This document shows positions 7,404 to 64,000 of a stretch of DNA of 64,000 bases, piece after piece. The DNA lies in NCBI GenBank assembly GCA_014871385.1, contig CM026433.1:15441985-15505984 (forward strand), given 5' to 3'. Position 1 is the first letter of the stretch, and each line of letters opens with the position of its first letter. Made by a program: the position numbers and the translations under genes. Source of the stretch: Ceratodon purpureus. Taxonomy: Eukaryota; Streptophyta; Bryopsida; Pseudoditrichales; Ditrichaceae. Under the pieces are notes generated by a model. The model saw only the letters and a program-made list of their open reading frames with translations. It was not told the DNA's origin and ran no database searches.

Positions 7404-8262
7404 TTAACCCCTAAAGTTCTGAGGGCATTTTTCATTAAAACTGCCTCAAAACAGCCCCTCTTCAAAGCAAGGGGGATTTTGCAAACTTTGGGTCTTTTTT
7501 AGTACATCAAACCGTAAGATCTTGTAGCTAACTTCTATGTTTACATGTCCACCAAATCTCATGCACTCATTCTTCACCAATTGCAAGATCATAACGTTCA
7601 AAGTAGAAAAACAAGTTTTTTTCCCCTGCAAAAAAAGGGGACAGTAGAGTTTTGAAGGCCCAAATAACCATTTTTTTGCATTATGGATTTTGGGGGTTTT
7701 GATGCACGTCAAAGAAGACTGAGTTAGCTAATTGTTCTAAGAAAATTATATTCAAAAAAATTGTGGAAAGTTGCCAAAAAAATCATTTTCCGCTAGGGGG
7801 TATACTGAAATTCACAAACAAAGGGCATTTTTGGACAATAAAAATAGCATATGAAAAAAAATTGGAGTAAAAATCCGAACGGTGGGAACATGCTCTACTG
7901 CCTTCTCTATACATAGAGATTTTTATTTTAAAAAAATATCAAAATCTCAATTTTTGGTGGAATTTCAAAGTTTCGTCTTTGGGCACATTTTGGTAGTTTT
8001 GGGCAGTTTTGGGCAGAATTTGCTGCATTCACTGTGGTTGGGAAAAATTCAGCAGCTGCCCAACGAGCAGCGTTTGACACTTAAACCTTCATAACTTTTG
8101 ATCCCGATGTCGGAATTGAAAAATAAAAATACCCACACGAAGATCTCCAAACGGCCCACCTTCAATAAAAAATTCAGAAAATCCTGATATAAATTGCATT
8201 CGTAGGTACATGCCCAAATTCAAAAAAAGCCCAAATGTGGCAGATTGTCCTTTAGGGGTTAA
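7404..8262 (+). mobile_element. TTAA-flanked non-autonomous element, subfamily A copy 1 (A1)
   Basis: The element is bounded by TTAA (7404-7407 and 8259-8262). Inside these are inverted ends CCCCTAAAG and CTTTAGGGG; the interior is 851 bp with no transposase ORF. It matches A2 (28.3 kb) and A3 (29.6 kb) almost throughout: the GCAAACTT/GGTCTTTTTTAGTACATC block, the AACCGTAAGATCTTGTAGC core near 7510, the repeated TTTTGGGCAG tract near 8000, and the end AATTGTCCTTTAGGGG or close variants. TTAA at both edges with C-rich ends is how piggyBac-type and some Kolobok-type elements look; the assignment is inference. Confidence 0.8.
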
Positions 8263-8560
8263 TACATTAATATTCTAATTTATATCAAGGTATAAATATT
8301 GTAGGTAGGAAAAATTTGCTATGTGGCCTGCCGAAAAGAGAAGCCATGCATTGCTTGTAGCAGCTCTAAAGACATTTGTTGTAAGTTCTTTGAATTTGAG
8401 AACCACCTTCACACCTCTCCTTAAGAAATTTGAAATCATATGAACAATACTTCTGCCATGCTCTTACACAATCTTGCGCACAGCCTTGCGTAACGAGTTG
8501 AGAAAAATTTGATAGGGCATGTCTTCAAGACTCCTAAAAATGTGCCTTGCCGAGTAACTC
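8263..8560. other. Short spacer without recognised genes
   Basis: Nothing recognised apart from the edges of the neighbouring elements. Confidence 0.4.
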
Positions 8561-8830
8561 TAAGAGCATCCCCAGTAAGGCCTGAACCGTAAACCTGTAA
8601 TCGGAAAGATGTAGAAAGACGTGAATTGCGGTTCAGGCCAAGCATGTATTCGAGCTTGTAAGTCTGTAATTTACAGGTCGAAACCTCATTTTGGAAGGTT
8701 TTTTGGGGCAAACCTGTAAATCTGTAAACGGTTCTGGAATGTTTTGCTTCTGAAAGGCACTCAGGTTTGGGAGAACGACGTTCTCATAATTAGAGGCTTA
8801 CAGGTTTACAGCTCACTGGGGATGCTCTAA
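8561..8830. mobile_element. TAA-flanked MITE (PIF/Harbinger Tourist-like)
   Basis: A 264-bp element (8564-8827) begins GAGCATCCCCAGT and ends with its inverse ACTGGGGATGCTC. It is flanked by direct TAA on both sides (8561-8563 and 8828-8830). A 3-bp TAA/TTA duplication is typical of Harbinger/Tourist elements. The interior repeats segments around ACCTGTAA and TTACAGGT. There is no coding capacity. Confidence 0.65.
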
Positions 8831-12882: not shown

Positions 12883-13308
12883 TAAGGTAGAAACACCTTA
12901 AACCGGGCGAATAAGAGATTCAGCATGGTTGTGGACCTCGTGTGTACTGTTTGTAATTTTTCCTGGATGGGGAAACAGGAGGGAGAGTGAATGCAAAAAT
13001 TTCCAGAATTAAATAGCAAAAATTGAATTTACTACAAATTTTTGAAGTCAAAAGTGTACATGACCTTAAAGTGATCAGTAGACTCTCCTTTTGTGGCGCT
13101 CACGCATGTAGCTAAAACCGTGCAAATAGAGTTAATGAACCATGAATCTATGAACCAACCACCTCCCTACACGTGTCCATATCGAGTCACTATTCATGAA
13201 CTATTTATGAAATTGCTGTGCACGCAATAAGGTTCATGCCATGGGCGGCACAGGGGCGGTCTACCCTGCGCTTCTGGGGGCCGCCCGGTTTAAGGTGTTT
13301 CTACCTTA
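12883..13308. mobile_element. TA-flanked MITE with 25-bp perfect terminal inverted repeats
   Basis: Arms at 12885-12909 and 13282-13306 are perfect inverted repeats beginning AGGTAGAAACACC. Direct TA dinucleotides flank them (12883-12884 and 13307-13308). The element is 422 bp with no transposase. A TA duplication suggests the Tc1/mariner superfamily, but the ends are not the classic Stowaway sequence. The ends share AGGTA with the MITE at 51.57 kb. Confidence 0.7.
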
Positions 13309-25300: not shown

Positions 25301-25326
25301 TGACGCCGTCGCAATTCCACAGCCCT

Positions 25327-25665: not shown

Positions 25666-26934
25666 CGACACCGACAATGCTGCGAGTGCGTGCATGGCGA
25701 CGGCAGATCGATGGAGCTCCAGTCCGAGGGCGTCACTGCGATTGTGTCCGTGATCGACGACGGATGGATCGCCCTTTACTTAAGGATGCGGGACGAGGTT
25801 CGTACTCCTGTCTAGTTCTCAGGATGAATCCCTGAGTATCACGCGGATATGAAGCAGGTATGCTACCAGTATCACCTGAGTATCATGCGGATATGAGTCG
25901 AAAAGCTCGGCTCGCAAACTGCCCAAGGCTTCTGTGTCTTGTGAGCCACGAATCAGTGGTGGCGAAGTGTGAGGCTCTTGCGTAGTGCGGAGAGGATGAC
26001 GGTTCAGGATGGAATTGTCGTCTTGTGGGGCAGCCTTCACGCCGGTTTCAGGTCAGAATGTGAGATAGCTGTGGATGTCAGTTTGGCGGGTGATGGGGGG
26101 TGACGGTTCCGGGTGGAATTTTCGCCTCGTTAGGGGAGGTTTTCATTTGTGCCAGGGGATAATGGTCCATGGGGGGTGGGGTTGGATTTAGTGAGAGAAG
26201 GGAATCTCCTACAGTCTGGGCCCATTCCATAGCTGAAGCCTGAGTCCTTATGTCTTTTGGAATTGACTGCCTAGACTACAAAAAGGACCACAGCATGCGG
26301 ATATCCTCAATTGGTGTAGAGTCTAGACCGGCATGTAGAACTTTGAGTACAGATTTGATGGATTGTAACATAAGTTAGTAACTTAGTGCAGCACGGCCAC
26401 TCATGGGCGCAAGTTGAGCCAGACTGGGGCTGTTTTGTGATGAAGTGGACAGTGTGATTCAGATTCTATCAAAAGTCATGAACGTCAAACCAAGTAAAGC
26501 TATCACCAAAGTTAAGGTGTAGACCGGAGGAAAACCATTCCCGAGGAGCACCATTCCCGAGGAGCGCCAGACTCCCGAGGCCCGAGGAGCGCCATTCCCG
26601 AGGTTGTACCCGTTCCCAATCAATACCCGTACCTAGGCACTTGAATCCGGTTCTCTGAAGCTTGACGCGAATTTGGGGACCTTGCAGGACGGATGTTGAA
26701 TTGTTTGCGAGTGATGGAAACCCAGAACAGGCTGTTGAACAGTGGGTGCAGTGATTCATGGCACCCCTCATTGAGGAATAGTTGAATCAGGGGCGTTCCA
26801 GATATTTCATCATAGTTGACCGTAGAGATTAGAAGATTATAGCGATTGAACTTTTAGATTTGAAAGCAAACTTTTTTGATACAATTTTTAACTAGGTTGA
26901 CACACTTTTACTTTCGTTTTGTTATTTTTTATTT

Positions 26935-27505
26935 TTATTTTATGGATTTTGGAGGTTTTAGTGCATGACAAAGACGACTAAGTTAGCTAACCATGTAAAA
27001 CACTTTACACACAAAAAACAAGTGTAACATGTTGAAAGCAATATTTTTATTAAGTTGAATATACAAGAATGCTAATTCATATTTCTTTTCTAGAAATTCC
27101 GTATATCATAAAGTCCCAATTCAAACAATCAAAGTAAAGATTGATGTCCATCCATTAAGTGGAAAAAAGAAAAAACCTAAAAAAACAAATTTTCTAACTT
27201 TTATGAAGGAAAGAAGAAGTTTTTTTGGTACATTGACCAAAACAGTGAGAAAATTTTGATCTTTTGTGGAATGAACATTTTGTACGAAAAGAAGTTTTTT
27301 TTGAAATCTCAAAGATGTTGACATTAAGTTTTATTGGAAAAATAAAATTAATTAGCACGGCTGTCCAAATTGCCCACCAAACATTTAATTCCACTTTGGG
27401 TACCATATCCATTTTTATAATTGAAAATTATCTAAAATCGACATCACACTTACATGCCCAAACTTTCAAAAGCCCAAATGTGGACAATTGTTCTTTAGAG
27501 GTTAA
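26935..27505 (+). mobile_element. TTAA element, subfamily A, 5'-truncated copy (A4)
   Basis: Homology to A1-A3 begins near 26935 (TATGGATTTTGGAGGTTTTA, then a GCATGACAAAGACGACTAAG-type block). It ends in the subfamily terminus GGACAATTGTTCTTTAGAGG followed by TTAA (27502-27505). The 5' inverted end is absent and the 3' end has mutations in the conserved CTTTAGGGG, so this is an old copy. Confidence 0.6.
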
Positions 27506-28254: not shown

Positions 28255-29133
28255 TTAACCCCTAAAGTTCTGAAGGTATTTTTCATCAAAACTGCCTCAA
28301 AACAGCCCCTCTTCAAAGCAAGGTGGATTCTGCAAACTTGGGGTCTTTTTTAGTACATCTAACCATAAGATCTTGTAGCTAACTTCTATGTCTACATGTC
28401 CACCAAATCTCACACACTCATTCCTCACCAATTGCAAGATGATAATGTTCAAAGTAGAAAAACAAGTTTTTTTCCCTGCAGAAAAAGAGGACAGTAGAGT
28501 TTTGAAGGCCCAAAAAACCATTTTTTAAAGTAGATATGGAATGAATCTCTCCATAGTATTGTTACTAAGTGAGTTAGGTACATGTCCAAAAAATATCATA
28601 TTCAAAAAAGTAGTGGAAGGTTTCCAAAAAAAACATTTTCCGCTAGAGGGTATGCTGAAATTCACGTATAAAGGCCGTTTTTTGACAATAAAAATAGCTT
28701 ATGAAAAATTCTTGGATTGAAAATCCAAACGGTGGAAACATGCTCTACTGCCTTCTCTATACATAGAAATTTTAATTTTTGAAAAATATCAAAATCTCAA
28801 TTTTTGGTGGAATTTCAAAGTTTCGTCTTTGGGCAGATTTAGGCAGATTTGGGCAGATTTGGGCAGTTTTGGGCAGAATTTGCTGCATTCACAGTGGCTT
28901 TGAAAATTTCAGCAGTTGCCCAACAAGCAGCTTTTGACACTTAAACCCTCATAACTTTTGCATCGAGTGTCGGAATTGAAAAAAAAAAAAAAAAAAAAAA
29001 GACCCACACGTAGCTCTCGTTATAATCTACCTTCAATAAAATTTTCATAAAATCACGATTAAAATTGCAACTGTAGGTACATGCCCAAGTTTCAAAAACG
29101 CCCATTCTAGGACAATTGTCCTTTAGGGGTTAA
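28255..29133 (+). mobile_element. TTAA element, subfamily A copy 2 (A2)
   Basis: TTAA lies at 28255-28258 and 29130-29133. The interior of 871 bp begins CCCCTAAAG and ends CTTTAGGGG. It is close to A1 and A3 along its whole length and includes the core AACCATAAGATCTTGTAGC near 28363. An A-run of about 20 at 28980 is a local expansion. No ORF looks like a transposase. Confidence 0.8.
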
Positions 29134-29629: not shown

Positions 29630-30424
29630 TTAACCCCTAAACGCCCAAAAGTGTTTTTCATCAAAACTGCCCAAAAACAGCCCCTCTTCAAAGCAAGGTG
29701 GATTTTGCAAACTTGGAAACTTAATTAGTACATCCAACCGTAAGATCTTGTAGCTAACTTCTATGTCTACATTTCTACCAAATCTTACACATTCATTCCT
29801 CACCAATTGCAAGATCGTAACGTTCATAGTTGAAAAACAAGTTTTTTTCCCTGCGCAAAAAGGGATCAGCAGAGTTTTGAAGGCCCAAATAACCATTTTT
29901 TTGCATTATGGATTTTGAGGGTTTTGATGCACGTCAAAGAAGACTAAGTTAGCTAATTGTGTTAAAAAAAACCATATTCAAAAAAGTTGTGGAAGGTTGC
30001 CCAAAAAAACATTTTCCGCTAGGGGATATACTGAAATTTACAAACAAAGGCCGTTTTTTGACAATAAAAATAGCATATGAAAAAGATTTGGATTGAAAAT
30101 CGGGACGGTAGGAATATGCTCTACTGCCTTCTCTATACACAGAAATTTTTATTTTTGAAAAATATCAAAATCTCAATTTTTGGTGGAATTTCAAAGTTTC
30201 GGCTTTGGGCAGATTTTAGCAGATTTTAGCAATTTTGGGCAGTTTTGGGCAGTTTTGGGCAGAATTTACTGCATTGACAGTAGCTGTGAGCTTGCCGGAA
30301 GTTTGGCTGAATGCAGCTTTTGACACTCAAAACCCCGTAACTTTTTTTAAGTATGTTAAAAAAAAATTAAAAAGCCCAAATTTTAAAAAAGCCCATTCCA
30401 GGACAATGGGCCTTTAGGGGTTAA
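29630..30424 (+). mobile_element. TTAA element, subfamily A copy 3 (A3)
   Basis: TTAA lies at 29630-29633 and 30421-30424. The interior is 787 bp, begins CCCCTAAACGCCC and ends GGGCCTTTAGGGG, so the inverted ends extend about 13 bp with one mismatch in the shared part. The core AACCGTAAGATCTTGTAGC is near 29738. It lies about 500 bp from A2 in the same orientation and is shortened in its right half relative to A1 and A2. Confidence 0.8.
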
Positions 30425-32880: not shown

Positions 32881-33200
32881 TTGACCCCTAAAGTCGAAAT
32901 CGACCCAATCACTATTAATCTGCCTGAAAGTTTTTATAAAAATTGGAACTTTGACTGAATATATCTCAAGATTTGTACAATCAAAATTGATAAAACTTGG
33001 AAAGAAGATTAATTGGATGGCTCTGAACAAGATCGTCCGGTTGGATTTCTTAACATCAAGTTTAATAAAAAATTGTGCAATAATTTTAGAAAAGGTCGTT
33101 TGGAAGTCACTATACACATGTGGTCAATTTTTACTTTAGAAGTTAAATTAGGTCTATATAGAGATATAGATCGACTGTGATTTGGTTAAACTAGGGGTCC
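32881..33200 (+). mobile_element. Short subfamily-D-like element (D2) just upstream of the C53 gene
   Basis: It begins TTGACCCCTAAAG and ends near CTAGGGGTCC. Bases 32895-33117 match, in inverse orientation, 47355-47595 of the longer D1 element; shared words include ATATATCTCAAGAT, GTGGCTCT-like sequence, and AACAAGATxxTxCxGTTGGATTT. The outer edges are diverged from TTAA, so the boundaries are approximate. Confidence 0.5.
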
Positions 33201-33203
33201 TGG

Positions 33204-41276: not shown

Positions 41277-42213
41277 TTAACCCCTAAAGGTTCAAGCCGT
41301 TTTTGGACCTCCAAAACCAAAACTGTGATTTTTGACAACCTTATAGAAGCTGAAGTATGATTCTTAAATTTTTCATTTTTTGGTACATCCAACCGTAAGA
41401 TCTTGAACCTAACTACCTGCACTAATACCATGTCAAATTTCAATGGTTGGATCTTTACCATTTGTGAGATTATAACATTCAAAGTTTACTGTTTTTTTTT
41501 TTTTTTTTGGCTTTGCGCGAAAGGCATACTCTAAATGGTGCCAAGGGAGACTTGATTATTGTTACCTCAAACATTTTGCTCATATTTTTTCCACGTAGGT
41601 AACTAAGTTGAGCACCTCCGTGCAAAATTTTAGAGTCTCATTACACTTTTTTGGCCTTCATGCAAATTATTTTCCACAAGAAGGTACAAAAACCACAATA
41701 TGGTAAAACTGAAATGACCTGAAATGCTTTTGGTTTTTTACAAAAGTGAACGGTTAAAAGTTACGTCCATGAGTTCTTGAATTATTAGAAAAAATAAATT
41801 TGAAAAAATCCTAAATCTCAAGTTTTGACAAATTTTAAAAGAAAAAAACGTAAAATTACCAAAAACTGTGAAGGTTGTTTCTGTGATTTTTGGAGGCTGC
41901 TCTTATAAAATTGGTAAGCTTTTTGACTTAGGCCACTTTGGATTTTGAATAGTGACTTGGTTATGAACACATTTCAAAAAAAAAAAATCTAAAAAAACCT
42001 AATTTTAATTGCCCGTTTTGGACTTGAAATCTAAAATTTGTAGATGAAGGTTCTAAAAGTGAAATTTGGCTTCAAAATTTTTACCACATACATTTTACCG
42101 TATAAGCAGCATCCAATAAAAGTTTTAGGCAAAAATATTACTTTTAACCCCTTCATCTAGGCTGCCCGAAATAGCGAGAGCCATTTTGGATTTCCAGAAC
42201 CTTTAGGGGTTAA
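41277..42213 (+). mobile_element. TTAA element, subfamily B copy 1 (B1)
   Basis: TTAA lies at 41277-41280 and 42210-42213. The inverted ends are CCCCTAAAGGTTC and GAACCTTTAGGGG (13 bp perfect). The interior is 929 bp with no transposase ORF. The core ACATCCAACCGTAAGATCTT is at about 41389. The right half matches B2 (63.6 kb, inverse). A second internal TTAACCCC word at about 42145 is also present in B2. Confidence 0.82.
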
Positions 42214-43398: not shown

Positions 43399-44569
43399 TT
43401 AACCCCTAAATGCCCTTGAGACCCGTTTGGTGTTGCAGCACTTTTGGGCAGGCTATTGTAAGGTTTCAGAATTTTATTATTTTCTGAAATTTTTACTCCA
43501 TATAGCTTTCAACGATAGCTTTCCAATGGCGCAAATTTCAAAGCATTCGGAGTTACGATGCAAAAGTTATGAGTTTTAGAAGAATCTGCTCTAAATCCAG
43601 GCACCCAATACCCAATGGAAATCACCCATTTTCTGCCCAAGTTGCCCGTCATTCAATGGGGCAGAAAGTGACAAGACGATTTCTCAAAAGGTGGGCACTT
43701 GCAAAATAATGGGTCCAATATTTTTACATCCATATACATTTGTGACGGTTTTCATCCAATTAAAAATATTCATCTAACTAACCATTTCCATCCAAGAAGG
43801 TTGCTGATTTTTTTCATTCAAATAAAAATTATCATCCAGAGTGTAATTATCATCCAAAATATAATTTCCATCCATATAAAACATTTCATTCAATATTTTA
43901 ATTTCATCCAAACAAAATGAATTTCATCCATTATGTATGATGTGGCAAGGGGTCCATCCACAGTACCCCCTTTTACCAAAACTGCCCTTTGAAATAAAAG
44001 GAAAATATACAATTTACACTTCAAAAAATTCTAGAAATTTGATATGTACTCCGATTGCATTAAAAAAATTGTGGTTCTTTTCCTCATTGACTTCAACATA
44101 TCTACCGTTCATATTTCCAATTGGACATCTTCGACTACCCTTTAAGTAGTTTTAATTTTGGAGAATGTAAGGTAATTTCAGCACAACCCCTTTCACAAAA
44201 TCAAGAATTTGTTTGCCTTTCTAAGCCTATATGAGGCTCAAATTTTGTGAGCATATACCTAAGTTCCATACCTAAAGGAATTGATGATCCTCTATGGATA
44301 AAATGTGTTTTTGGGCATCAAAACTTAGGTATACTCTCAGGGCAATGTCAAAAAAACTTTTACAGTGACTTTAAATGTTATAATCTCGCAATCTGTACAG
44401 TGGATTGTCTTCAAAATTGGTATACAACTTTTTGAATAAGTTAGTTATAAGATCTTATGGTTAAATATTCAATTTGATAATTTAATTTATAAATTATTAG
44501 ATTTTTATCAGTAGTGGTATGTTTTTGGCAGTTTTGGCTCTAAATATATCAAGGGCCTTTAGGGGTTAA
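43399..44569 (+). mobile_element. TTAA element, subfamily C copy 1 (C1)
   Basis: TTAA lies at 43399-43402 and 44566-44569. The ends CCCCTAAATGCCCTTGA and TCAAGGGCCTTTAGGGG are inverted repeats of 17 bp with one mismatch. The interior is 1163 bp without a transposase. The core is present in inverse orientation at about 44440-44465 (TATAAGATCTTATGGTTAAA). A central array of about 11 CATCCAA-like words occupies 43750-43960. Confidence 0.82.
43750..43960 (+). repeat. CATCCAA-like periodic motif array inside C1
   Basis: CATCCAA or one-base variants (CATCTAA, CATTCAA, CATCCAG, CATCCAT) recur about 11 times at intervals of roughly 15-25 nt, usually preceded by T-runs. The same array (as TGGATGAAAA) is kept in C2 at 63185-63410 although the intervening sequence differs. 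This iteron-like spacing suggests binding sites; the function is inference. Confidence 0.7.
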
Positions 44570-47114: not shown

Positions 47115-48190
47115 TTAATCCCTAAAGCATCAACTCAACAATTTTGGTATGATTTAGGGTCCAGTTAGGCTCCCTATGAGTCAAATCTTAGTGGATGTGG
47201 CTCTAACTTTGGCACAACATGGGAAATTATCATATTTTTCTAACAAGACCAAATTTTACTTTCATCACGCCCGTAGTTGAGAAATAATTTGTGTTTAAAG
47301 GTCAAAATTCAATCCAGGGCAGCTGGAGCAGGTTTATGGCCGATGGGAGTGGTGTACCAAATCTGTGACAGTCTACAGTCACTTCCAAATGATCCTTTCA
47401 GAAAATCGTTTCACAATTTTTTTTAAAACTTGATTTTGAAAAATCCAACTGTATAATCTTGTTTAGAGCCACCCAATTCTTGTACGTATCAAATTCTGTA
47501 ATTTTTGACCGTACGGATCTTGAGATATATTTAGCCAAAGTTCCAAGCTTTATAAAAACTGTCAGAGAGATCGACAGTGATTGGATCACCTTTGTCACCC
47601 ATTTTTCCTTCACCATTTTCTCCTCCTAAACCACAGTATATGCTGTAAAATTCATATCTATTTTGGATTTCTTTCCTCTACAATTTCTTTTCCATACAAA
47701 TGCATGTACATATCGTTCGGATTTCAAAAAATAGATGATCTTCTTAGGGATTTGTAGTGTGGAAAAAGAACCAGTGTATATGCATTTCATTTGACTCCCG
47801 TCACTGGAAATGTGGTTTTTCAATGCTTTTGTGTCTTGTATTGTCTTCATTTTTTTTTGTGCATACTCCCACTCACATTAGAACCCAAAAATGAAGAGCC
47901 TCCAACCACACGATCTCAAAACATTGGTTGTTTCACTCTTCGAATGGTGGCTGTCGCTGCCAGGTAGTACCAAAAAAAACTTTTCTCTCAAGTTCAAACC
48001 TTACGAACTCCCAAACGGTGAGGAGTTACAATCTAAAATTTTGTGTACACATATATGTACAAGTTAGGTACTAGATCATACGGTTAGATTCTTTAAAATA
48101 CGTTTGAATTTGCATAATTCTACCTTGAACTAAAACAGGGCAGAATTGAGGCACAATTTGGGATTTTATGGCCAAAAACCTAGGCGTTAA
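47115..48190 (+). mobile_element. TTAA element, subfamily D copy 1 (D1)
   Basis: It is bounded by TTAA at 47115-47118 (followed by TCCCTAAAG) and 48187-48190 (preceded by CCTAGGCG), so the ends are diverged from CCCCTAAAG. The interior is 1068 bp with no transposase ORF. Core-like sequence occurs twice: CCAACTGTATAATCTTGTTT at about 47446 and, inverted, GATCATACGGTTAGATT near 48075. Homology to D2 spans 47355-47595. Confidence 0.6.
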
Positions 48191-52619: not shown

Positions 52620-52735
52620 TGAGGGTGAAGCTGTGGAAGGTCAGGGTGAGGCTGCGGAGGAGCTTCGGCAAGGGGTCAGGGTGAGGCTGCAGACGGTGCG
52701 GAGGGTCAGGGTGAGGCTATAGAAGGTCAGGGTGA
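52620..52735 (+). repeat. Minisatellite GGTCAGGGTGAGGCT
   Basis: The words GGTCAGGGTGAG(GCT) recur four times with variable 10-25 nt linkers (AGACGGTGCGGA, ATAGAA and others). Non-coding. Confidence 0.6.
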
Positions 52736-54673
52736 GCAGATGGTGAGACTATGGATGATCTGATGATGATGATGCAATGGAGCGAGCGAGCGGACCCGGG
52801 AGAAAATGCCACCAGATGCTAAATTTATAATAATACAAAGCACGCCCAAATTGGAGGTTTATGAGGTTACTCATCACTGCACAGGATGAGGCCGTCAGTG
52901 CTTAGACGCATGAGATTATTTCGAAAGGGTGATTTACCAAGGGCCCCTTAAAGAGAGAGTGAATGGGAATCGAGTATACAAGAGCGCCTAAATTTGTAAT
53001 CACATCAGAGGTGAACTAGGCAGAGAACACCAAAACAAAAAAGGAGCCAATCAAAGTCTCAGTCACAAATTACTTCTACACCATTTGCCAGTTTTGGTGT
53101 TCTTGTACGTCATTTCTAGTAGTGTAACTATTGAAGATTGGCTCGTAAGAGGCCGAAGACAAGTCTAGTATTCATGAAATTTCCAATCTAATTCATATAG
53201 AGATTCCTAAGATATAAACTGATAAAAATTCAATTGAAGTATAGAGGTTTTGACTATCTACCATTCATGGTGTGAAGCACCAAAGTTTATATCCAATGTT
53301 CAAAAATTCTAAAATTGACCTACTTGGTGGCGATGGCGGCCTTCGGCGCTGGGCGCGATGGCGGACTTGGCTTGTAGCTCACGCGGCAACTCTGCTATGA
53401 GCTCGCCAATACTTTTTTCTACTCCTACTCCCAATTTTAAGTGGTTTGATTGGTTTTTGCACAATTTTCACCACAAGTACGACCTTTCCAAGTTAGGATT
53501 AGGGATTTGTAGCGCCTCTTCCCCCAAGTTATCGTGAGGTCTTAACAAGGTCAGGGACCCAGTTACCGCACACCATACGATGCCAGGGACCCAAGTTTGG
53601 CTGTGTTGTACTCCGCGATGGACAAAGGCTACATCAACAACGGAACACTGAATCCGTTCCAACGCAAAGCGGGAGGGATTTTACCAGGAGGGGCTTTCCA
53701 CAATCATCAAGGTTTGCAGAAACGTGGTATAACCACTTTTAATCTAACTCTAAGGCACAACTTACTGTAGGGTAGGAAATTCCTTTCCTTTCCGCCCATG
53801 TCGTTATTGTATGCGTCGTTGAAGGGAAGCTTCAGAGTGACACACTTGCCGAGTGGTGGGAGTCGCTCTAAACCATGGTAGCTCTAGGCCAAGTGAATTT
53901 CCACAAGCGAGTAGGGCGGCACTTTGCCTACATCCGTACAAGTGGGCCATCAACCACGGCTCAACTCCCGGCGACATTTTTAGCACTTGAAGGGCGACAC
54001 AATGATTTATCAACGCTGGCTCAAGGGTTTTAACCCCAGCACTCCCTTCGGCATCCTTTGGCCGACATGGATTTTGTTCCCGAGCTCCCGCTAGAGTACC
54101 AGAAATATGCAAAGAAGGGGGCGGAACAACTCGGCCCCGTTCTTGCGGAACACGCTGCCGACGAGTTTGATTCTTTACTCATTTTTTGTATAGAGATCAA
54201 ATGTTGCTGCGTTCGATTTCAACAATCGCGGGATACAGTGCAGTCGAGGCAATGCGGCAATCCTGGTGCACTACGACAACCTCATGCTTATTTGCGGCCT
54301 TTGTGGGCACCACCAACACGCGACCGCAAGTTGGCCTTGCAAATGGCATAGCAAAACTCCTCACCGTCATCCTCCTGCACACACTGTGGAGCCCCATGCT
54401 AAGGGTTGTCAGTAGAGGAACAGTGGTTGAAATTGTCGGCTTCTCACGTGACGAACGTGACGGACACGATTTTACCGAACAATCGGACATCCTTATCGAA
54501 CGAGCTTCCGCGCGCGAGTAAAATTACACACCTCACAGTTTGCTGCTATTTACCATGGATGACGCTCGTTGCCGCATCTGCTCGCGTCCGTAGGCATGGG
54601 CGTGCGCGCCCACATGCATGTGCCTGAATGCTCGCGCCCGTCCGCACGCACCCGAGAGCTCGTGCGAGACTTC

Positions 54674-54791
54674 CACCGAGAAGTTGTTTATTTCAATTTG
54701 ATGCTAGCTCCTCCTTTGCGCGCGTGCATGCATGCAGGCATGGATACATGAAAGAATCAAGCATCAAAATGAAATGAACAACTTCCTGGTG
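54674..54791 (+). ncRNA. Strong 32-bp-arm hairpin, candidate small-RNA precursor
   Basis: Arms 54674-54705 and 54760-54791 pair with about 28 Watson-Crick pairs, two G-U wobbles and two mismatches (hand count), around a 54-nt loop. The loop contains GTGCATGCATGCAGGCATG, which is self-complementary. The upper arm includes GAAGTTGTTTATTTCAATTT. There are no TIR/target-site signs of a MITE. No transcript evidence is available. Confidence 0.45.
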
Positions 54792-55662
54792 CAGGTCGGG
54801 CGCGTGCTATTGAGTGTGCGTAGAAAAAATTAGCACGAAAATGAAATGAAACCAAACTCCCAGAATTCATGTCGATATGTTCATATATGATTTGAATCTT
54901 GATTTTTGTACTATTAAAGTTATTTATGTCAAATATAGTTTTATATTTTGTTCATGATTGCATTCATTAATTAAATATGTAAATAACTAATATTTTATGT
55001 TATTCTTGAATTGATTTGCCATATTTCATTCAATTGGCACATACAATAATTTGTCATAAAAAATATAGAAAAACAAAATACATCATAGAATGGGAATGAT
55101 AAAATAAATTAATACATGATAGACTAGGAATGGAAGAAAAAGAGAACAAGTAGATAGAATGGAATAATAGTGAAGTTAAAATGAACAAGATGATAGAATG
55201 GAAGACAATTGGAAAGATAAATCAAATTAAAGATAGGATGGGAGACAAATGGAAGAATAATAAATTAAATTAGTACGTGATAGACTAGGAATGGAAGAAA
55301 AAGAAAATGAGAATATAGAATGGAATAATAATGAAGTTAAGGCCACGATTTTGTCTTCACGTGATCGGCTTTAGAAAAACCTATGTGTTGGTTGTGTGTA
55401 AAAGTAAAAATGTTAATTCAAAAATTTGTATCAATTCAAAAAATGGTCCAAAATTTTCCAAAAAACAGGCATTCTTCATGATTTCTATTTATCATCCCAC
55501 GAAAAATAACCATTCAGCATTCCTCCTCCTGGATCATTGCGAACTCTCTTATTTGGTCGGTTTTGGTGCTTCAACCTTATTATTTTTTTTTTTCTTGAAG
55601 CAAAATTCATTGCAAGGAGATAAAATACAAGCCCTCATCGGGGGAAGCCCAGGGCAGGAGAG

Positions 55663-58600
55663 TTACCAAAAGATTACAAGACGGTTAGCAGGGATGGAGT
55701 TCCAAGCAACATTCAGACCAGTTCTAATACAAAGAATACCATTCTGAGTCCAAGCAGCGTCAAGTTCATCTAAAGCCTTTTGGGCCTTCTCGGGGGTTTT
55801 AGCCCGGTTATGTCTTCGTTTTGTCTTGATCCAGTCGATGCGACCATATTCAAGTAGTGAATCCCAAGTGTAGTCTTGGATTCGTCTGATTGACCAGGCA
55901 GTCCCTTCAAAGACGGCCTCATTGCGTAGTATCCAAGAGCCCCAGAGGACAATGCCCCGAAGAAGGTTCCAGATACGAATGGTACCCATCCTGCGGAGTC
56001 TGATCCTTCTACCGAAGATGCACTGTTCGAGTGAGAAGGTCTTGGCCGGTCCAATGTTTTGTTTTCCCTTCAGGAGCCAGTGAATGATCGTGAAGGCGAA
56101 GGTCCACAGCTTCTTGGACTGGGGGCACTGATAGAAGCGGTGAGAGTATGTTTCGAGAGAGTTGTCCGTGCAGACTGGGCAGCTGGGGTCGGCTCTGGGG
56201 TTGAATTTGTGTCGCCAGGTGTTGGTGGCAACAGCCTGATGCCAAATGGACCAAACAAAAGCTGCTTCCTTCTGCGAGCGACATTTCCAGTTAGTTTTCC
56301 AGTCAAGTGGAAACGTGATTGTTGCTTCGTGGCGCCATTTCCTGTCAATTGAGGTCTGGAGCTGCTGTCTGTTCGATAGAAGTTCTCGCCCAACTTTAGC
56401 ACTAAACATGGTGAGAGGGAGACTGTTCTTCCAGCTCCAAAGTTGCGGGTCGAAGTGTGGCAGCCTCCATACCACTCCATAGTAAACATAAGAGGGGGTT
56501 TTGATAGACTTGCCTACAGGGGCAACTCTGATGATTCTGATCGTACCTTGCCAGCGTCGGACAATGTGTTCCAGTCTTTGAGCTACATCGAGAATGAGGC
56601 TTCGAGATTGTGGGCCGACGGAGTACACTGCGTGACCAAAGGGAAGGGTCGGCAGGCAATTCGGGTCCTGAATGCTGGCTGGTTGCCAAATTCTGCTGGT
56701 TTGGACCAAGAAGAATGGAGTGTCGTCGTCACTGGGTTCAAAACCCCCAATCCATGATCCCTGTCGAAGGAGGATGGGGTCCGTTGAGAGCGCTCTTCCA
56801 AACTCTTGCTCTGTCTTCCTGCAAAGTGATTCAACACTAAGGGATTTTGCGTCGGTTAGGTTGAATTCAGCTTGAAGGGTTTCTATCGGTTTGGGGCGTT
56901 GCAAGGCCATATCCCAGAGATCTGCAACTTTCTGAAGTCCTCTATTGTATAGGGAGAGGGCATTTTGTCGGGAAAGGTTGAGGTCACCACCTTTGTAATT
57001 CAGACCCCACCATAGAGAGACCTCAGATGCTTCCGCCGAGTCAGCACGAGGAGATTCGCGCAGGTTCTTGATCATTCTTTTCCAGGCGAGTTGAACCTTG
57101 GACCAGGTTTTTGATCCTGCAACTGGAGAGTGGTTGTCAACTAGTCCCCAGAGGGGATGGCATGGCCATCGGTTTTGCTTCTCCGGGCTGGACCTCCAGA
57201 GTTTGTTTCTAAGGAACAATTGCAGGTTTGAAGCTCCCGGTAAATATGCGGCAAGCACCCATTTGCAAAGGAGGCTGCAGGTCGCTTCTTGAGGATCGAT
57301 GAGGAAAAGGCCTCCAACCGGTTTCTTTGCACAGCAGTCAAACCAATTAACACGAGTTCTTGCAGAATGCTCCGATCCGGCCCACAGGTAATTTCTCAGA
57401 AGAGCCTTAACTCTGTGGATGGCCTTAACTGACCCGTGCCAGATTGATAAAAAGTACCACAACGAGGATAGAAGAACCTGCTTTACAATCATTGCTCTGC
57501 CTGCTAATGACAATTTGGTTGTGGACCAGTACTCCAGCTTGGATCGAATTCGAGAGATTAGGAATTGATCAATGTCAGCTGTGTCAAGCTTGATTCCGAA
57601 AGGCGTGCCCAGGAGTTTCGAAAGCTCGTTTTCATCTGCCCAAGTCCAGCCAATGTTGGTAATCCAAGCAGGTCTAGGGTGCGTGCTGCACCAGCAGGCA
57701 GAGCTTTTGCTCCAATTAATTTCAAGCCTGGTTGCAGCCTTGAAAGTATTCAACAAATCTACCAGGTGGAGAATGGTTCCTGGGTCACTTACTTCGAGGG
57801 AAATGGATGTATCGTCGGCAAACTGCGATATGAGTTGAGACTGCTGAGAGTTAGGAATCCGAATTCCTTGTATCTCTCCTTGTTGCTGAGCTGACTTGAG
57901 GAGAGAGTTAAGGGATTCAGCGACTAAGATGAACAATAGAGGCGCCAAAGGGCAGCCTTGCCGTACTCCCCTGCAAATGTCGAATGAGGCTGTCTTCTGT
58001 CGGTTGACATTAACACAGGCCGAAGCTCCCGTGAATAACAGCTTAGAGAGGGCGATGTAATAGGGCCCCAGGCCCATTTTCTCCATACATTTGAAAAGGA
58101 AGTGCCAGCTAACCTTATCAAAGGCCTTTCGAAAATCGACCTTTAGGAATAGAAGAGGTTGCTTGGTTCTTCGTGCTGTGTCAATGGTCTCATGAGCCAC
58201 GAACACATTGTCGAGGATGAAGCGCTTTGGCACAAAGGCAGTTTGATCAGGGCTAATCAATTCTGCAAGTAAGGGAGTTAACCTCATTTGGAGAGCTTTC
58301 GCCAGGATTTTGTAGGCCGAATTGAGGAGTGTAATCGGTCTCTGATTGCCTAGGTCTTCTTGCGGTCCTGTTTTGGGAATTAGAGAGATGGCACCTTGAG
58401 TCATTTGCTTGGGCAATCGTTCCGCTTGGAGAGCCTGGTTGACCATTCGGAGATAATCTGGGGCAAGCAGGTTCCAATGGTGGGTATAGAATACTATACT
58501 CACTCCATCTGGGCCGAGAGCTTTATCTCGTGCAAGAGCCTTTGCTGCGGTCCTTAGTTCTTCGACAGTGAGGTCGCAGTTGAGTTGATCTCTCATTCTT

Positions 58601-59958
58601 TCGGTGACTCTCTGGTTGACACAGCTCAAAACTCTGTCGGTGGCTTGTTCATCAGGAGAGGAGGGAGGAGCGTAAAGCTGCTGGTAATAGCTGCGGCAGA
58701 TTTCTTGAAGCTGCTGTTGCTCACATTGAATCTGCCCCTTAGAGTCTAGAAGTTTGGTGATGCTATGGGATTTTGGTTTTTCTCGAACAACATTAAAGAA
58801 GTCTTTGTTGCACGCATCCCCTTTGTCTCTCCACTTTACCCGTGCACGAATTCTTTGACCTTCAGCTTTGGATCTTTCAAGTTCAGATAACTTTTCCCGG
58901 AGCGTAGCCACTTCTAGCTGAAGGGGGAAAGAACAGGGGTCGGAGTGGAGTCTTGCCTGAGCCGAAGAAAGTTCCTGCTGCAGTTCAACCTCAAGGGCTC
59001 TGGTTGAGAGAGCTTTTTGTTTGGAGTAGTTTCGGTAGAAGTGAAGGACTTTTCTAAGCTTCGAATAGAAGGAGAGCCCTTCTGGGAGAGCACTCCATAT
59101 TCGCTGGACCTCTGCAGTTGTCTCGGTAATGTAAGATACATTCATTTTCCAAGAGGGGCGCAGTCGCTGTCCACCTGTGATCGTCAATTTGATACACACC
59201 GGCAGATGATCCGAGAGTGCACACCCCCCATGAATGAAATAAGAGTCAATTTGGACAGAGCACCTGCTTGGATCTGGTTTAGGAGTATAAAACCGATCCA
59301 GGCGAGCTAGGATGCGTTCACCATGGGTGCGACCGTTGTCCCATGAAAAGCGGGGTCCCTGGGTGGAGGAGAACCGGTCCTCGAGATTTAAAGCGGACTT
59401 CAAGCTGTTCCAAATGAACCGCTCTTGGTCGCCCAGAAGGCGTCCACAGGCTGAGGATTTGTCACGGCTGCTCTCCACCATGTTGAAATCACCGCCCAGA
59501 ATCCAGCTGTGGTGGAGGGGAAGGGCTTCAGGTACGCTATTCCATAGTGTTCGGCGTTGCTGGGCGTCGTTGGGGCTGTAGGCATTGGCGATTCCAATCT
59601 CGCTACCTGAGGCGGTTTTGAGTGTGAGCCAGAGAATCCGACCATGGTTAATGCTACCTGAGTTGACTACATGTCCAATGAGTTTACTGAGAATTAAAGT
59701 GGCTGTCCCACCGCAGCCAGCTCCAGCTTCATTTCGGTGATGACCATATCCAGCAGAGGCTTCTGTGTAGTAGTAATCTGCCCTGTTGTTAAGTTGGCGG
59801 CCTAGTTCACTTGCCTTGGTTCCTGTCAGCTTATGTTCTTGAATGAGGAAGATGTCTGGGGCGGGTTGGAGGGATTGGATATAGTTGCGCAGCCTACGTA
59901 CTTTGTCCGGGTCGTTTAATCCCCGGACGTTGAGTGTGTAGATGGACAGCTGCATCAT
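55663..59958 (-). CDS. LINE ORF2: endonuclease and reverse transcriptase
   Basis: The frame is open from 60042, but the start preferred here is the ATG at 59958, overlapping the ORF1 stop, because the endonuclease begins right after it (MMQLSIYTLNVRGLND); this gives 1431 aa. In that numbering, the APE-type endonuclease shows IQEHK (catalytic Glu about 41), GGDFNM (about 155-160) and SDH (about 249-251). The reverse transcriptase shows LGPDGVS, LIPKTG, RPITLLNSAYKILAK, FLKVDFRKAFDKVSW, RGVRQGCPLAPLLF and the catalytic FADD (about 713-716). A zinc-binding zf-RVT region (CPVCTDNSLETYSHRFYQC) lies near the C-terminus. No RNase H domain was noticed. There are no stops or frameshifts, so the protein is potentially active in target-primed reverse transcription. 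Confidence 0.95.
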   Translation of the reverse strand: MMQLSIYTLNVRGLNDPDKVRRLRNYIQSLQPAPDIFLIQEHKLTGTKASELGRQLNNRADYYYTEASAGYGHHRNEAGAGCGGTATLILSKLIGHVVNSGSINHGRILWLTLKTASGSEIGIANAYSPNDAQQRRTLWNSVPEALPLHHSWILGGDFNMVESSRDKSSACGRLLGDQERFIWNSLKSALNLEDRFSSTQGPRFSWDNGRTHGERILARLDRFYTPKPDPSRCSVQIDSYFIHGGCALSDHLPVCIKLTITGGQRLRPSWKMNVSYITETTAEVQRIWSALPEGLSFYSKLRKVLHFYRNYSKQKALSTRALEVELQQELSSAQARLHSDPCSFPLQLEVATLREKLSELERSKAEGQRIRARVKWRDKGDACNKDFFNVVREKPKSHSITKLLDSKGQIQCEQQQLQEICRSYYQQLYAPPSSPDEQATDRVLSCVNQRVTERMRDQLNCDLTVEELRTAAKALARDKALGPDGVSIVFYTHHWNLLAPDYLRMVNQALQAERLPKQMTQGAISLIPKTGPQEDLGNQRPITLLNSAYKILAKALQMRLTPLLAELISPDQTAFVPKRFILDNVFVAHETIDTARRTKQPLLFLKVDFRKAFDKVSWHFLFKCMEKMGLGPYYIALSKLLFTGASACVNVNRQKTASFDICRGVRQGCPLAPLLFILVAESLNSLLKSAQQQGEIQGIRIPNSQQSQLISQFADDTSISLEVSDPGTILHLVDLLNTFKAATRLEINWSKSSACWCSTHPRPAWITNIGWTWADENELSKLLGTPFGIKLDTADIDQFLISRIRSKLEYWSTTKLSLAGRAMIVKQVLLSSLWYFLSIWHGSVKAIHRVKALLRNYLWAGSEHSARTRVNWFDCCAKKPVGGLFLIDPQEATCSLLCKWVLAAYLPGASNLQLFLRNKLWRSSPEKQNRWPCHPLWGLVDNHSPVAGSKTWSKVQLAWKRMIKNLRESPRADSAEASEVSLWWGLNYKGGDLNLSRQNALSLYNRGLQKVADLWDMALQRPKPIETLQAEFNLTDAKSLSVESLCRKTEQEFGRALSTDPILLRQGSWIGGFEPSDDDTPFFLVQTSRIWQPASIQDPNCLPTLPFGHAVYSVGPQSRSLILDVAQRLEHIVRRWQGTIRIIRVAPVGKSIKTPSYVYYGVVWRLPHFDPQLWSWKNSLPLTMFSAKVGRELLSNRQQLQTSIDRKWRHEATITFPLDWKTNWKCRSQKEAAFVWSIWHQAVATNTWRHKFNPRADPSCPVCTDNSLETYSHRFYQCPQSKKLWTFAFTIIHWLLKGKQNIGPAKTFSLEQCIFGRRIRLRRMGTIRIWNLLRGIVLWGSWILRNEAVFEGTAWSIRRIQDYTWDSLLEYGRIDWIKTKRRHNRAKTPEKAQKALDELDAAWTQNGILCIRTGLNVAWNSIPANRLVIFW

Positions 59959-61838
59959 TATTGACGATTGGGGAAAGAGGCCGGGGCAGCTGAGGCGGTG
60001 GGTGCCGCTGCAGCTTCGAGACGATTGGAGAGAGCTTGCCACTTCGCTTTATAGGATGCTGCTAGGCGAATAGAGCTGGCCCGGGAGCTTGATGTTTGAC
60101 TTGAGCTGGGGGAGGCTGATCCTGAAGAAGCTGTGTCCTGTTGTGAGAGGAGGGATGAGCGGATTGCTATATGTCCATTCCCTTGGGGCGGTGTTGTGTC
60201 AGGGATGAGCCGACTAGCTTCAATTGCAGAGTCTGCTCGTGGGGAGTCTATAACTTGTGTTGGAAAAGCGTCAAGGTGGAGGGGGGAGGCAGAGCTGTTG
60301 CTCTGGGCAGTATGCCGTTCCCGATTCCTGATTTCCTCAATGGTCCGAAAGGCCTCGGCAGGTGGGGCATCAAGAAGGATTCGCAAGTTTCCCCCTACAT
60401 CCTGAATGACGAATTGGTTGCTCGGTAAGTCTTCTGGAGATGATAATTCTAGGCGTTTTGAAGTGCCATTGCTTTTCTCTGGGGAGCTGAATTGAGAGTT
60501 GGATCCTGCACCTCGCTTTGCACCGGGATTCCTCCCATACCGTCCCAGGGACCAGGTCATAGGAGCACCGGCTTGCTGATCAGGAGGTTCTTCAAGCATG
60601 GCCGCAACCTGTTCAGATGTACATACCTGTATTGGTTGTTGCAGATTAACAGGTGGAGAGGGTTGCGTTGGTTCGGGGCCTCTTGGAGGAGGAGGCGGGG
60701 GCAGGGGCTCGGGATCCCTAGGTGGTTTCCGTGATCTCCTGTTGCGAACCACCGTGAATCCTTGAGAGTCTGTCTCCCCTGGGGATTGATGTGGAACGTC
60801 TATTGGGGGATCAGCTGGTGCTGGACGGGGTGCCAAGTTGGTGGCTGGGGTCCTTGGGATTGGGTTGAGTTCATCTCGCTGCCGAGGTGGATTGCTGGGG
60901 TAGTCAGGCCGCTCAGGGCTCCAAGCACCGTTAAACTTTAGCTCTAGACAATCTGCCACTTTGTGGCTGAGTGAATGGCAGAACCTGCAGCGTACGGGGG
61001 CGTGCTCATAATTGAGAATCAGCAGGTTCCTCTTCCCTCCTATGCCGAAGACTTCTAGTGCTGAAGGCCATCCTTGGGTTATGTCCAAGCCAATGCAGAA
61101 ACGGGGATCACGCAGAAATTTATTCTGGGGGTCTGCCTGGTAGACTGGGCCTAAAGAAGCTGCGAGCAGACCTTCAACAGGTTTAAATTCGTGTGGAATT
61201 TTAACGAGGCTGATCCAAGTGGGGAGTTTCAAACCTGAGGGGAAATCTGGGTTGAAGTTAGGCTCCCATTCCTGGTAAGCACATTGTCCCCACGGTGTGT
61301 TGTGGGGGGTGAGAGCAAGTAACCGCCAAGTGGTAATCACGTTCGAAGTTGTGAGGAAGATGAAGCCGCGTCCCATGTCCATCTTGAGAGAAACGCCATT
61401 GTAACCTAGCTGCTGGTTGAGAAGGTGTATCCAGTCCACCAATGCGCTCTGAGGGATCTTCCTGCCGAAGAAGCTGGCGATGACTGTGACTTCCTTCAAT
61501 CGAGCTGCTTCCGCTTCCAGCACTGCTGGGTCTAGCTGGGGTCCTGCGGAAAGTTGTCGCATCAAGAGTCCATGATAGATCCTGTTGAAGCCGCTGGGCA
61601 GCTGCTCGTTGGGTTCTGGTTGGTACGGGTTGAACCTGCCCCTGTCGCCAATGCGATAGCATAGAATAGGACAGGCTAGAGATGATTCTGAAACTGCAAT
61701 TTTCGGGGGAAGTACCTGACGATGCGGGGGTGGAGCATTGTTGCCTTGTCCGGATCTGGCCCTGTGTTGAGGTCCTGAGCTTCCACGCGCCCCAGCTCCT
61801 TGCTCGCCTCGTGCGAGCACAGCCTTGTACGAGTCCAT
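59958..61838 (-). CDS. LINE ORF1: RNA-binding protein with CCHC zinc knuckle
   Basis: 626 aa. The N-terminus is Arg/Gly/Pro-rich. Residues about 110-260 resemble the DUF4283-type domain common in plant L1 ORF1 proteins (TVIASFFGRK, MGRGFIFLTTSNVITTWRLL). A zinc knuckle CRFCHSLSHKVADC (C284, C287, H292, C297; CX2CX4HX4C) follows. The C-terminal half is Pro/Ser-rich and probably disordered. The family role is binding of element RNA in a ribonucleoprotein. The stop codon TAA (59960-59958) shares its last A with the ORF2 ATG. Confidence 0.9.
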   Translation of the reverse strand: MDSYKAVLARGEQGAGARGSSGPQHRARSGQGNNAPPPHRQVLPPKIAVSESSLACPILCYRIGDRGRFNPYQPEPNEQLPSGFNRIYHGLLMRQLSAGPQLDPAVLEAEAARLKEVTVIASFFGRKIPQSALVDWIHLLNQQLGYNGVSLKMDMGRGFIFLTTSNVITTWRLLALTPHNTPWGQCAYQEWEPNFNPDFPSGLKLPTWISLVKIPHEFKPVEGLLAASLGPVYQADPQNKFLRDPRFCIGLDITQGWPSALEVFGIGGKRNLLILNYEHAPVRCRFCHSLSHKVADCLELKFNGAWSPERPDYPSNPPRQRDELNPIPRTPATNLAPRPAPADPPIDVPHQSPGETDSQGFTVVRNRRSRKPPRDPEPLPPPPPPRGPEPTQPSPPVNLQQPIQVCTSEQVAAMLEEPPDQQAGAPMTWSLGRYGRNPGAKRGAGSNSQFSSPEKSNGTSKRLELSSPEDLPSNQFVIQDVGGNLRILLDAPPAEAFRTIEEIRNRERHTAQSNSSASPLHLDAFPTQVIDSPRADSAIEASRLIPDTTPPQGNGHIAIRSSLLSQQDTASSGSASPSSSQTSSSRASSIRLAASYKAKWQALSNRLEAAAAPTASAAPASFPNRQ

Positions 61839-62072
61839 GTAGTCGGTCCAAAGTGAGTGCTAATTCGTCATTAGGGTTTGCTAACCCTAATTAGAGTGCG
61901 CGTTTCCGAGGAACCTGCTACAACTAGAGCTAAGTTCGATTCACGAAGTACACGCCCATCGATAGGAATCAGAGAGGAACCATCAGATGGTTAGCATCGC
62001 GGAGCGCCATCGCTCGCCGCCTCCCTGCTCTCGCCACCGATCCGTTTGAGCATAAATTTTCTCAGGCAGCAA
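61839..62072 (-). promoter_or_regulatory. LINE 5' UTR with presumed internal promoter
   Basis: These 234 bp lie between the target duplication and the ORF1 ATG. The first part is G+C-rich (GGCGGCGAGCGATGGCGCTC on the minus strand), as in many plant LINE 5' ends. Promoter function is inferred from family behaviour. Confidence 0.5.
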
Positions 62073-62087
62073 CTTCAACCTTATTAT

Positions 62088-62839
62088 GATTGTGACACTG
62101 TTTTCAGTATTCACAGTGAAAACACCCCGAAGAATCCAAGATTGCCAAAAATCTGGCTAAGTACACTATTTCCAAAATAGCGGCCATTGAATAGAAAAAA
62201 GGCTTTGGCACCAACCACAGCATTCCCATACGCTCTTCACAAATACCAAGACAGACAGAAAATGGGTTTTGGAGGGGAATTTGGTGCAATATCAGAGTTT
62301 ATGATTCAAATTTTAAACAATTTATTTTCCCACATTCTTTGATCATGCATTTTGCAGGGATTTAGGGTGGGTGGCAAAATTAGCTGCTCCAAAGGGAGGC
62401 TGCTCCAAAAGGGGAAAGTCCAGACACATATTGATATGGTGATGAGAAATCAAGCCAATCTCAATGATCATTGATTCACTGATAATGCAACGTGGTAACA
62501 TATGGCACAGGCCCCAATGTATTGTGATACAATGTCACAATGTGGAGCGTTTGCCCCTATTTTAGCAGAGATATTGGCCTATCAGCCATTGCCTGCAGCC
62601 TGAGCTATTCCTTCAAGCAATAAGTAATAAAAAATATTCAAAGAGCAAAGGCGAAAATTCTACAGTATTTGTAAATTCAGCTAGTTGCTTGTCTACCAAA
62701 ATAAGTATTGTTGGTCTTGTAAATTTCTTGGATGATTTTTTGTAATTTATTTATTTTGTAATTTCGTTGCGGATGAAAAGATACACTATCTCATACAACC
62801 ACAAGGAAAATGCTTTGAAGAAAAAAAATTGAAAGTCTT
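62088..62839. other. Spacer right of the LINE
   Basis: Continuation of the pre-insertion locus. No gene recognised. Confidence 0.4.
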
Positions 62840-63572
62840 AATTTGTTATTTGTATAGCAAAGTTTTGGTGCCCAAAAAGTATACATTGCAAACACATTTG
62901 ACCTATACAAGGTCATCAATTCATCTTGGTGTGGAAATTAGGTCTGTGTTCAAAAAGTTTGAATCTCATACAAGCTTCAGAAAGGGAAAGAATCATTGAT
63001 TTTCTGAAAAGAGGTGTTCTGAAATTGCCATACATTCTCCAAAATTACCAAAAGAGCAATCTAAACATGTCCAATTAGAAATCCAAACACTAAATATGTT
63101 GGAGTAAAATTCAAAAAAGTAAATTTCACTGTAATTTTGATGTGCACTTTTGAAATAATGGGTTGTGGAGATGAACCCCTTGCCACATCATAGTTATTGA
63201 ATGAAAAATCTATAGTCCCGATGAAAAATAAAGATTAGATGTAATATTTTATGTAGATGAAAAATGAATTTTGGATGAAAACTAAATTTCTGGATGATGA
63301 TTTTTATTTGGATGAAAAAATTCACCAACTTCTTTAGATGGAACCGGTTGGTTAGATGAAAGTATTTATGAGATGAAAACTCTCATGAATGTGTATGGAT
63401 GAAAAAATATTGGACCCATCATTTTGCCCTGTCACTTTCTGCCCATGTGAATAACATGCAACTTGACCAGAAAGTGGGAGATTTTGATTGCTTATTGGCT
63501 GCCCTGATTTAAAGCGAATTCTTGTTAAATGCATCACTTTTGCATCGTAACTCCAAATGCTATGAAATTTAA
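62840..63572 (-). mobile_element. TTAA element, subfamily C, partial copy (C2) interrupted by B2
   Basis: Inverse to C1. It shares the ATGATGTGGCAAGGGGT block (63180-63200), the TGGATGAAAA array (63185-63410), TTTTGGAGAATGTA, and GGAGTTACGATGCAAAAG (about 63540-63555). The left end near 62840 lacks the inverted terminus. At 63569 the homology is broken by element B2, and the rest presumably continues beyond the window. Confidence 0.65.
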
Positions 63573-64000
63573 CCCCTAACTATCCCTAAAACCCAAAATG
63601 GGTTTTTGCACTTTCGGGCAGTCCATATGGAGGGGTTAAAAGTAATATTTTTTTTCAAGATTTTTACTGGATGCTTCCTTTACGGTAAGGTCTATGTAGT
63701 AAAAATTTTGAAGCCAAATTCCAATTTTAGAACCTTCATCTAGAAATTTTAGGTTTCAAGTCCAAAACGGGCAGTCTAAATTTAGGTCTTTTTACAAAAA
63801 CAAAAATTGAAATATGTTCATAACCAAATTACTATACAAATTCCATAGTGACCCAAGTCAAAAAATTTACCAATTTTACAAGGGCAGCCTCCAAAACTTA
63901 CAAAGACAAGCTTTAAAGTTTTTAGTAATTTTTGAATTTTTCCTTTCAAAATTTGTCAAATTCGAGATATTTGAATTTTTGAATTTTTTTTTCTTCTGAA
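63569..64000 (-). mobile_element. TTAA element, subfamily B copy 2 (B2), cut by the window end
   Basis: It begins TTAACCCCTAACTATCCC at 63569. On the minus strand it matches the right half of B1, including the internal TTTAACCCCT word (about 63634-63643), ACTGCCCGAAA, AAAATTTTGAAGCC-type and GGAGGCTGCCCTT-type words. It is inserted in subfamily C sequence at the point equivalent to 43531 in C1. The other end is outside the window. Confidence 0.7.

Follow-up and report, generated by a model that had tools for sequence, protein, structure and literature searches.

Transposases of the piggyBac superfamily cut DNA at TTAA, join the element to a new TTAA and close the donor site without leaving a scar. 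The moss system described here has in common with this superfamily, represented by the insect piggyBac (PDB 6x67) and piggyBat (PDB 9c0f), the TTAA target, ends that start with CCC, a PF13843 (DDE_Tnp_1_7) domain and four aspartates. A second point of comparison is provided by the miniature inverted-repeat transposable elements (MITEs) of plants, which in the available text of a survey of 207 plant genomes (PMC12550479) are short, non-coding, multi-copy and inverted-ended. We have analysed a stretch of 64,000 nucleotides from the genome of Ceratodon purpureus (362.5 Mb in 151 contigs), referred to below as the window, which contains a set of short elements that resemble these plant MITEs in all four respects but, unlike them, target TTAA. 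Five full elements and a diverged sixth are, very probably, non-autonomous (MITE-like) piggyBac elements of C. purpureus, with TTAACCCCTAA ends like those of the coding elements of the same genome, and are likely mobilized in trans by the transposases of those coding elements, by cut-and-paste at TTAA. Coordinates without a prefix are positions in the window, and C1, C5 and so on are contigs of the host genome.

In the original prediction, five elements in the window had been described as bounded by TTAA with matching inverted ends. All five were found at exactly the predicted coordinates, each flanked by TTAA on both sides and each with inverted ends (Table 1). The element at 47115, which had been listed as diverged, aligned end to end with L020, a relative from another part of the genome that itself has perfect ends (1096 columns, 85.6%). 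Four partial or truncated copies had also been proposed, and all of them are real, but the one at 32881 is a short derivative of family D with two degraded ends and not a truncation. The degraded copy at 26932 can be aligned with family A over just 59 and 58 columns, at 83%. Together, the element spans total approximately 7.7 kb, or 12% of the window. Sequences within one mismatch of the 13-base end TTAACCCCTAAAG occur 13 times in the window, whereas 100 dinucleotide shuffles gave 0.08 on average and never more than 2.

It had also been proposed that the elements form several subfamilies with common ends and unlike overall sequence, and this agrees with the four families that we distinguish: A (7404, 28255 and 29630), B (41277), C (43399) and D (47115), whose middles differ. 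All four also contain a common block located approximately 100–130 bp from one end, and the strands of the elements at 43399 and 47115 were set so that the block shared with family A falls near the element start. A possible role for this block is that of a candidate transposase-binding region.

Exact copies of the 13-base end number 5516 in the genome, versus 16 for the reversed pattern, which corresponds to 15 per Mb (5516/362.5 Mb). The density in the window is 125 per Mb (8 in 64 kb), and since the window is approximately eight times richer in exact ends than the genome, the extrapolation of its roughly 10% element content to the genome fails. As a rough estimate, scaled by the number of element bases per exact end in the window (~960), the families amount to ~5 Mb, or 1–1.5% of the genome. 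Among 40 intact elements defined by their ends, 18 belong to family A (including the coding element L009), 11 to B, 4 to C (two of these being one element in an inverted duplication) and 6 to D, and one belongs to none; the sample was drawn from the window and the start of contig C1 and is not genome-wide. A 237-bp element with TTAACCCCTAAAA ends at L008 2136-2372 lies outside all four families, and in a B element at L025 501-1864 the two B parts are separated by ~430 extra bases.

The 20-mer CCCCTAAAGGACAATTGTCC, in which the TTAA is not included, has 109 copies in the genome, 100 of which are directly preceded by TTAA; reversed controls gave none. The original prediction had called for empty sites containing one TTAA, and a clean paralogous example was found. 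When the flanks of L016 are joined at a single TTAA, the resulting sequence aligns with the uninterrupted paralogue L008 along 165 bases (91%, no gap), and TTAA stands at the junction. Another candidate, at L027 (73%), was not clean and was excluded from the count. At the right edge of the window a B copy is nested in a C copy, and comparison with the uninterrupted paralogue at 43399 shows exactly four bases at the site. Dispersal by segmental duplication instead of transposition would fit one of the C elements, which occurs twice, at L032 and L033, 37 kb apart in opposite orientation and with identical 8-base flanks, as an inverted duplication. Among the other sampled copies, however, the flanks differ and the ends coincide to the base; on these differing flanks and the L016/L008 empty site, segmental duplication was rejected, and we regard it as exceedingly improbable.

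The elements had been described as having no transposase. This is true of the window, where a tblastn comparison with the L009, L010 and L012 transposases gave no match at E up to 1, but it is not true of the genome. A profile search of the genome with PF13843 scored 116 domains out of 998 candidates (E 5e-84 to 4e-73), all of them above the curated cut-off and 93 of them stop-free in the match by hand count. Because this list lacks the L010 and L012 domains, the count is a lower bound. The PF13843 domain was found in none of 14 control genomes.

The original prediction had also proposed a search for longer elements that share these ends and encode a DDE transposase, and this succeeded both from the ends and from the transposases. 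Within the first 100 listed places there are 33 pairs of facing ends no more than 20 kb apart; 30 of these span up to 1.4 kb and the other three 5.3, 10.5 and 12.6 kb, and each of the three long pairs contains a PF13843 piggyBac transposase. The transposase-encoding elements L009, L010 and L012 were reached from the ends, and L066, L052 and L061 from the transposase. Full-length coding elements measure 5.3–5.8 kb, have TTAACCCCTAA ends and encode transposases of ~1000 amino acids. Five further loci were probed outward from the transposase: L066 (5578 bp) has exact ends on both sides, both termini of L052 (5802 bp) and of L061 (5447 bp) carry TTAACCCCTAA, the 5' end of L055 is clear, and the fifth is L064.

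The aspartates D268, D346, D447 and D450 (6x67 numbering, positions hand-counted on the alignment to 6x67) are all kept in 32 of 32 aligned C. purpureus proteins. The moss frames are ~900–1070 amino acids long with the DDE domain starting at approximately residue 430–465, whereas in 6x67 it starts at 132. Unlike 6x67 piggyBac, the moss proteins have a land plant as host and group apart from the named animal proteins: the 32 proteins, together with 15 unnamed database proteins, form one group of 47 rows (SH-aLRT 95) in a quick protein tree that carried long-branch warnings. The ratio of nonsynonymous to synonymous substitution rates (dN/dS) in the transposase domain is 0.06–0.14 in four pairs, with saturated dS (2.1) in one pair. 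Two pairs of loci are near-identical, at 99.2% over 3.2 kb and 98.1% over 4.1 kb, which suggests recent copies made by transposition or by regional duplication.

These coding elements also bear on the superfamily. The original prediction was right in recognizing TTAA-targeted DNA transposons with C-rich ends and in naming piggyBac as a candidate, but it had given Kolobok equal standing. A Kolobok element, or one of another TTAA-targeting superfamily, would share the target; however, Kolobok termini are 5'-RR/YY-3' in the available text of PMC9587614, while the ends here begin CCCC and hence 5'-CC, and the transposases of full-length elements bearing such ends have the PF13843 domain. Kolobok identity was rejected on both grounds, and this alternative is left with almost no weight.

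The short elements can be connected to the coding elements by more than their terminal bases. The last 198 bp of the element at 7404 show 73% identity to the 5' end of L009. In the element at 28255, identity to the same end is 76% over the last 208 bp, and 52 bp are 90% identical to L052 at its 5' end. The element at 29630 matches L009 and L066 at their 5' ends, with 96% identity in its last 51 bp. Family C is 69% identical to the 3' end of L052 over 173 bp, and the D copy L020 is 78% identical to L068 over 58 bp. A stretch related to the block shared by families A–D, CAACCGTAGGATCTA, is present in the 3' end of L009. The tie to the coding elements is direct for family A and modest for families C and D, while for B it runs through the shared ends, and it is this sharing of ends and sequence with piggyBac-coding elements that makes the short elements best read as non-autonomous piggyBac. 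In such a system, a transposase of the L009/L066 type would bind at two places, the conserved 5' end and, close to the 3' end, the shared block, cut at TTAA and join the element into a new TTAA, as established for piggyBac, and the donor site would be left closed and scar-free, again as in piggyBac. Other transposases from the same population may serve families B, C and D.

Several observations weigh against this reading. The case for mobility of the elements is drawn from sequence. The final one or two bases of the L052 and L061 ends deviate from TTAACCCCTAAAG, the 3' end nearest to L055 comes from a C-like element nested there, L064 is seen from one side, and the C-terminal Cys-rich domain gave a weak second match to piggyBat, of 1.6 bits. 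Nine of the 109 copies of CCCCTAAAGGACAATTGTCC have no preceding TTAA, and the paralogue of the nested B-in-C site has GCAA there instead of TTAA. An empty TTAA by itself cannot tell a 4-bp duplication of TTAA from a 2-bp duplication of TA, and TA-duplicating elements of the Tc1/mariner or Stowaway type that prefer a TTAA context would give the same L016/L008 empty site. The full TTAA before 100 of 109 ends and the piggyBac nature of the coding relatives nevertheless led us to reject TA-target elements, to which we assign next to no probability. Family B shows no match over 30 bp to any coding-element end examined, and its link to the coding elements consists of the 13–17 bp end and the shared block. 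With B lacking extended similarity of this kind, it could be argued that the mobility of B, C and D depends on a transposase from a different superfamily, with the 13-base ends shared by chance. This is very unlikely, because all four families have in common both TTAACCCCTAAAG and the same block at equal distance from one end, the 3' end of L009 contains a block-related stretch, and C and D are modestly similar to piggyBac-coding loci.

The two longest coding elements, of 10.5 and 12.6 kb, were read out of facing pairs of ends and represent a separate large lineage. Their 20-base ends, TTAACCCCTAAAG[C/G]ATGTTG, occur 67 times in the genome (control 0) and form 16 facing pairs within 20 kb, four of them below 5 kb and twelve from 9.8 to 17.4 kb. 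All 16 pairs carry the same C or G at both ends, which is weak evidence because all eight of the farther consecutive pairs, up to 17.6 Mb apart, also match. Facing ends 31–63 kb apart at C6:108454239, C7:8768278, C11:4008445 and C11:14482574 may be larger elements, nested insertions or unrelated ends, and four tandem ends with 164-base spacing lie on the same strand at C1:25449757-25450268. The two elements that were read are colinear over eight segments in inverted order, and both encode the transposase and a B3-domain protein (PF02362, E 1e-7 and 3e-7). In one comparison each, dN/dS is 0.14 for the transposase and, for the B3 protein, 0.32 over its whole length and 0.23 in the domain. That the B3 protein assists transposition is a guess. 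Two of 38 database relatives of the large-lineage transposase are named animal proteins, and the other 36 are unnamed. Teratorn, a giant piggyBac of fish, is likewise a large piggyBac with additional genes, but it is described in the available text of PMC6431247 as 41–182 kb long and herpesvirus-derived, whereas the moss pair carries a plant-type B3 gene; the frames of the two moss elements that were scanned against Pfam matched no viral gene.

The 12.6 kb element (L012) also holds a piece of Cactin, to which there are four near-complete matches in the genome. Only the match at C5:2381863-2383743 runs stop-free through residues 56-685 of P0049, the Cactin query, in a frame of 648 amino acids, and for that reason it is taken to be the host Cactin gene. 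The single TAG that one comparison counted in this match was absent from the count over the stop-free stretch and would fit the gene's own stop, and a transposase was not seen in the 1 kb beside it. The remaining two copies both have, at the expected distance, a transposase 96% identical to that of L012, and they are bounded by the 20-base ends (C5:10975332-10988238 and C11:11800291-11813201), with one such end inside each of the four 801-base windows around the predicted positions. Three large elements of 12.6–12.9 kb are carriers of a broken Cactin piece with the parent gene elsewhere, the defining arrangement of Pack-TYPE elements. As in Pack-MULE, Pack-CACTA and others in the available text of PMC8903248, a host gene fragment lies between the transposon ends; unlike these, the moss carrier also contains a piggyBac transposase frame. 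The copies in the elements begin at approximately residue 189–201 of the query and contain a frame break or TAG. A working Cactin encoded by the 12.6 kb element was rejected, since the 5' part is missing and the frame broken, and the captured piece is likely a passenger and not a working gene. Just upstream of it, at ~7.2 kb in L012, the translated ISTVEARDYPILGVQWHPE resembles, by eye, gamma-glutamyl hydrolase and is perhaps a second captured piece. On balance we think it fairly likely that mosses hold a large piggyBac lineage (~10–17 kb, 20-bp ends TTAACCCCTAAAGNATGTTG) with a constrained second gene of the B3 type, which acts as a 'Pack-piggyBac' by capturing and multiplying pieces of host genes, such as Cactin.

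The other features of the window are included in Table 1. Upstream of the 1461-aa open reading frame (ORF) of the long interspersed nuclear element (LINE) is a 633-aa ORF with a weak DUF4283 match under the cut-off. The two inverted-repeat pairs that start with TAAGGTA are perhaps another small transposon family.

Table 1. Transposon copies and other features of the 64,000-nt window
Feature	Position	Strand	Observation
Family A non-autonomous piggyBac element (very probable), 859 bp	7404..8262	+	TTAACCCCTAAAG exact at both ends
Block common to the four families	7495..7533	+	...AACCGTAAGATCTTGTAGCTAACTT...; sequence comparison of A-D
Degraded family A copy	26932..27505	+	right end TTAACCTCTAAAG kept; left end not found
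Family A element, 879 bp	28255..29133	+	both ends exact
Family A element, 795 bp	29630..30424	+	one mismatch in left end
Short family D derivative, 266 bp	32881..33146	+	degraded ends TTGACCCCTAAAG / TTAACTTCTAAAG; orientation opposite to 47115
Family B element, 937 bp	41277..42213	+	exact ends; inverted ends of 17 bp
Family C element, 1171 bp	43399..44569	-	one mismatch in left end
Family D element, 1076 bp	47115..48190	-	decayed ends; full-length match to perfect-ended D copies elsewhere
Family C copy	62852..63568	+	opposite to 43399; broken at its position ~134 by family B copy
Family B copy inside C copy	63569..64000	-	extends past window to coordinate 64504 (locus L028)
TCTE1/DRC5-like flagellar gene, by eye	3283-6072	+	Pfam: weak LRR
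Inverted-repeat pair starting TAAGGTA	12883-13308		27 bp, 100%
SIAMESE-type cell-cycle inhibitor motif, by eye	38898-39476	-	no Pfam match
Inverted-repeat pair starting TAAGGTA	51571-51949		26 bp, 92%
Complementary arms	54649-54816		arms of 64 bases, 75% complementary, 40-base spacing
L1-type LINE	55663-61859	-	1461-aa ORF: endonuclease, reverse transcriptase and zf-RVT domains

As a kind of element piggyBac is known, and the plant surveys searched hardly mention it in their available text. Neither piggyBac nor TTAA occurs in the main text of the 207-genome MITE survey (PMC12550479), and piggyBac is absent from the available text of the Pack-TYPE paper (PMC8903248) and of a review of gene capture in plants. 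The literature searched, whose scope did not take in the Ceratodon genome paper or Repbase, contains no description of piggyBac in Ceratodon or of families A–D in the text available. Full novelty is weighed against by three sources, each as far as its available text goes: a repeat table for C-fern lists 1230 PiggyBac hits (0.00% of sequence), a plant review (PMC10794571) includes PiggyBac where it lists superfamilies in general, and a tabulation of 2015 records PiggyBac for every group that it covers, among them land plants. Because plant MITE surveys use mainly five inverted-repeat superfamilies (available text of PMC12550479), piggyBac families of land plants would be missed or mislabelled.

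Thousands of these ends occur in a single moss genome, together with transposase domains that number at least 116 and belong to several lineages. Most of the domains are stop-free in the match and dN/dS is low in the four pairs compared; the two pairs of loci that are 98–99% alike suggest recent copying. The activity of a native plant piggyBac, as well as its use in plants as a tool for seamless excision, would be directly testable. The Cactin copies add the capture of gene pieces to a superfamily for which the literature searched, in its available text, describes no Pack element in plants.

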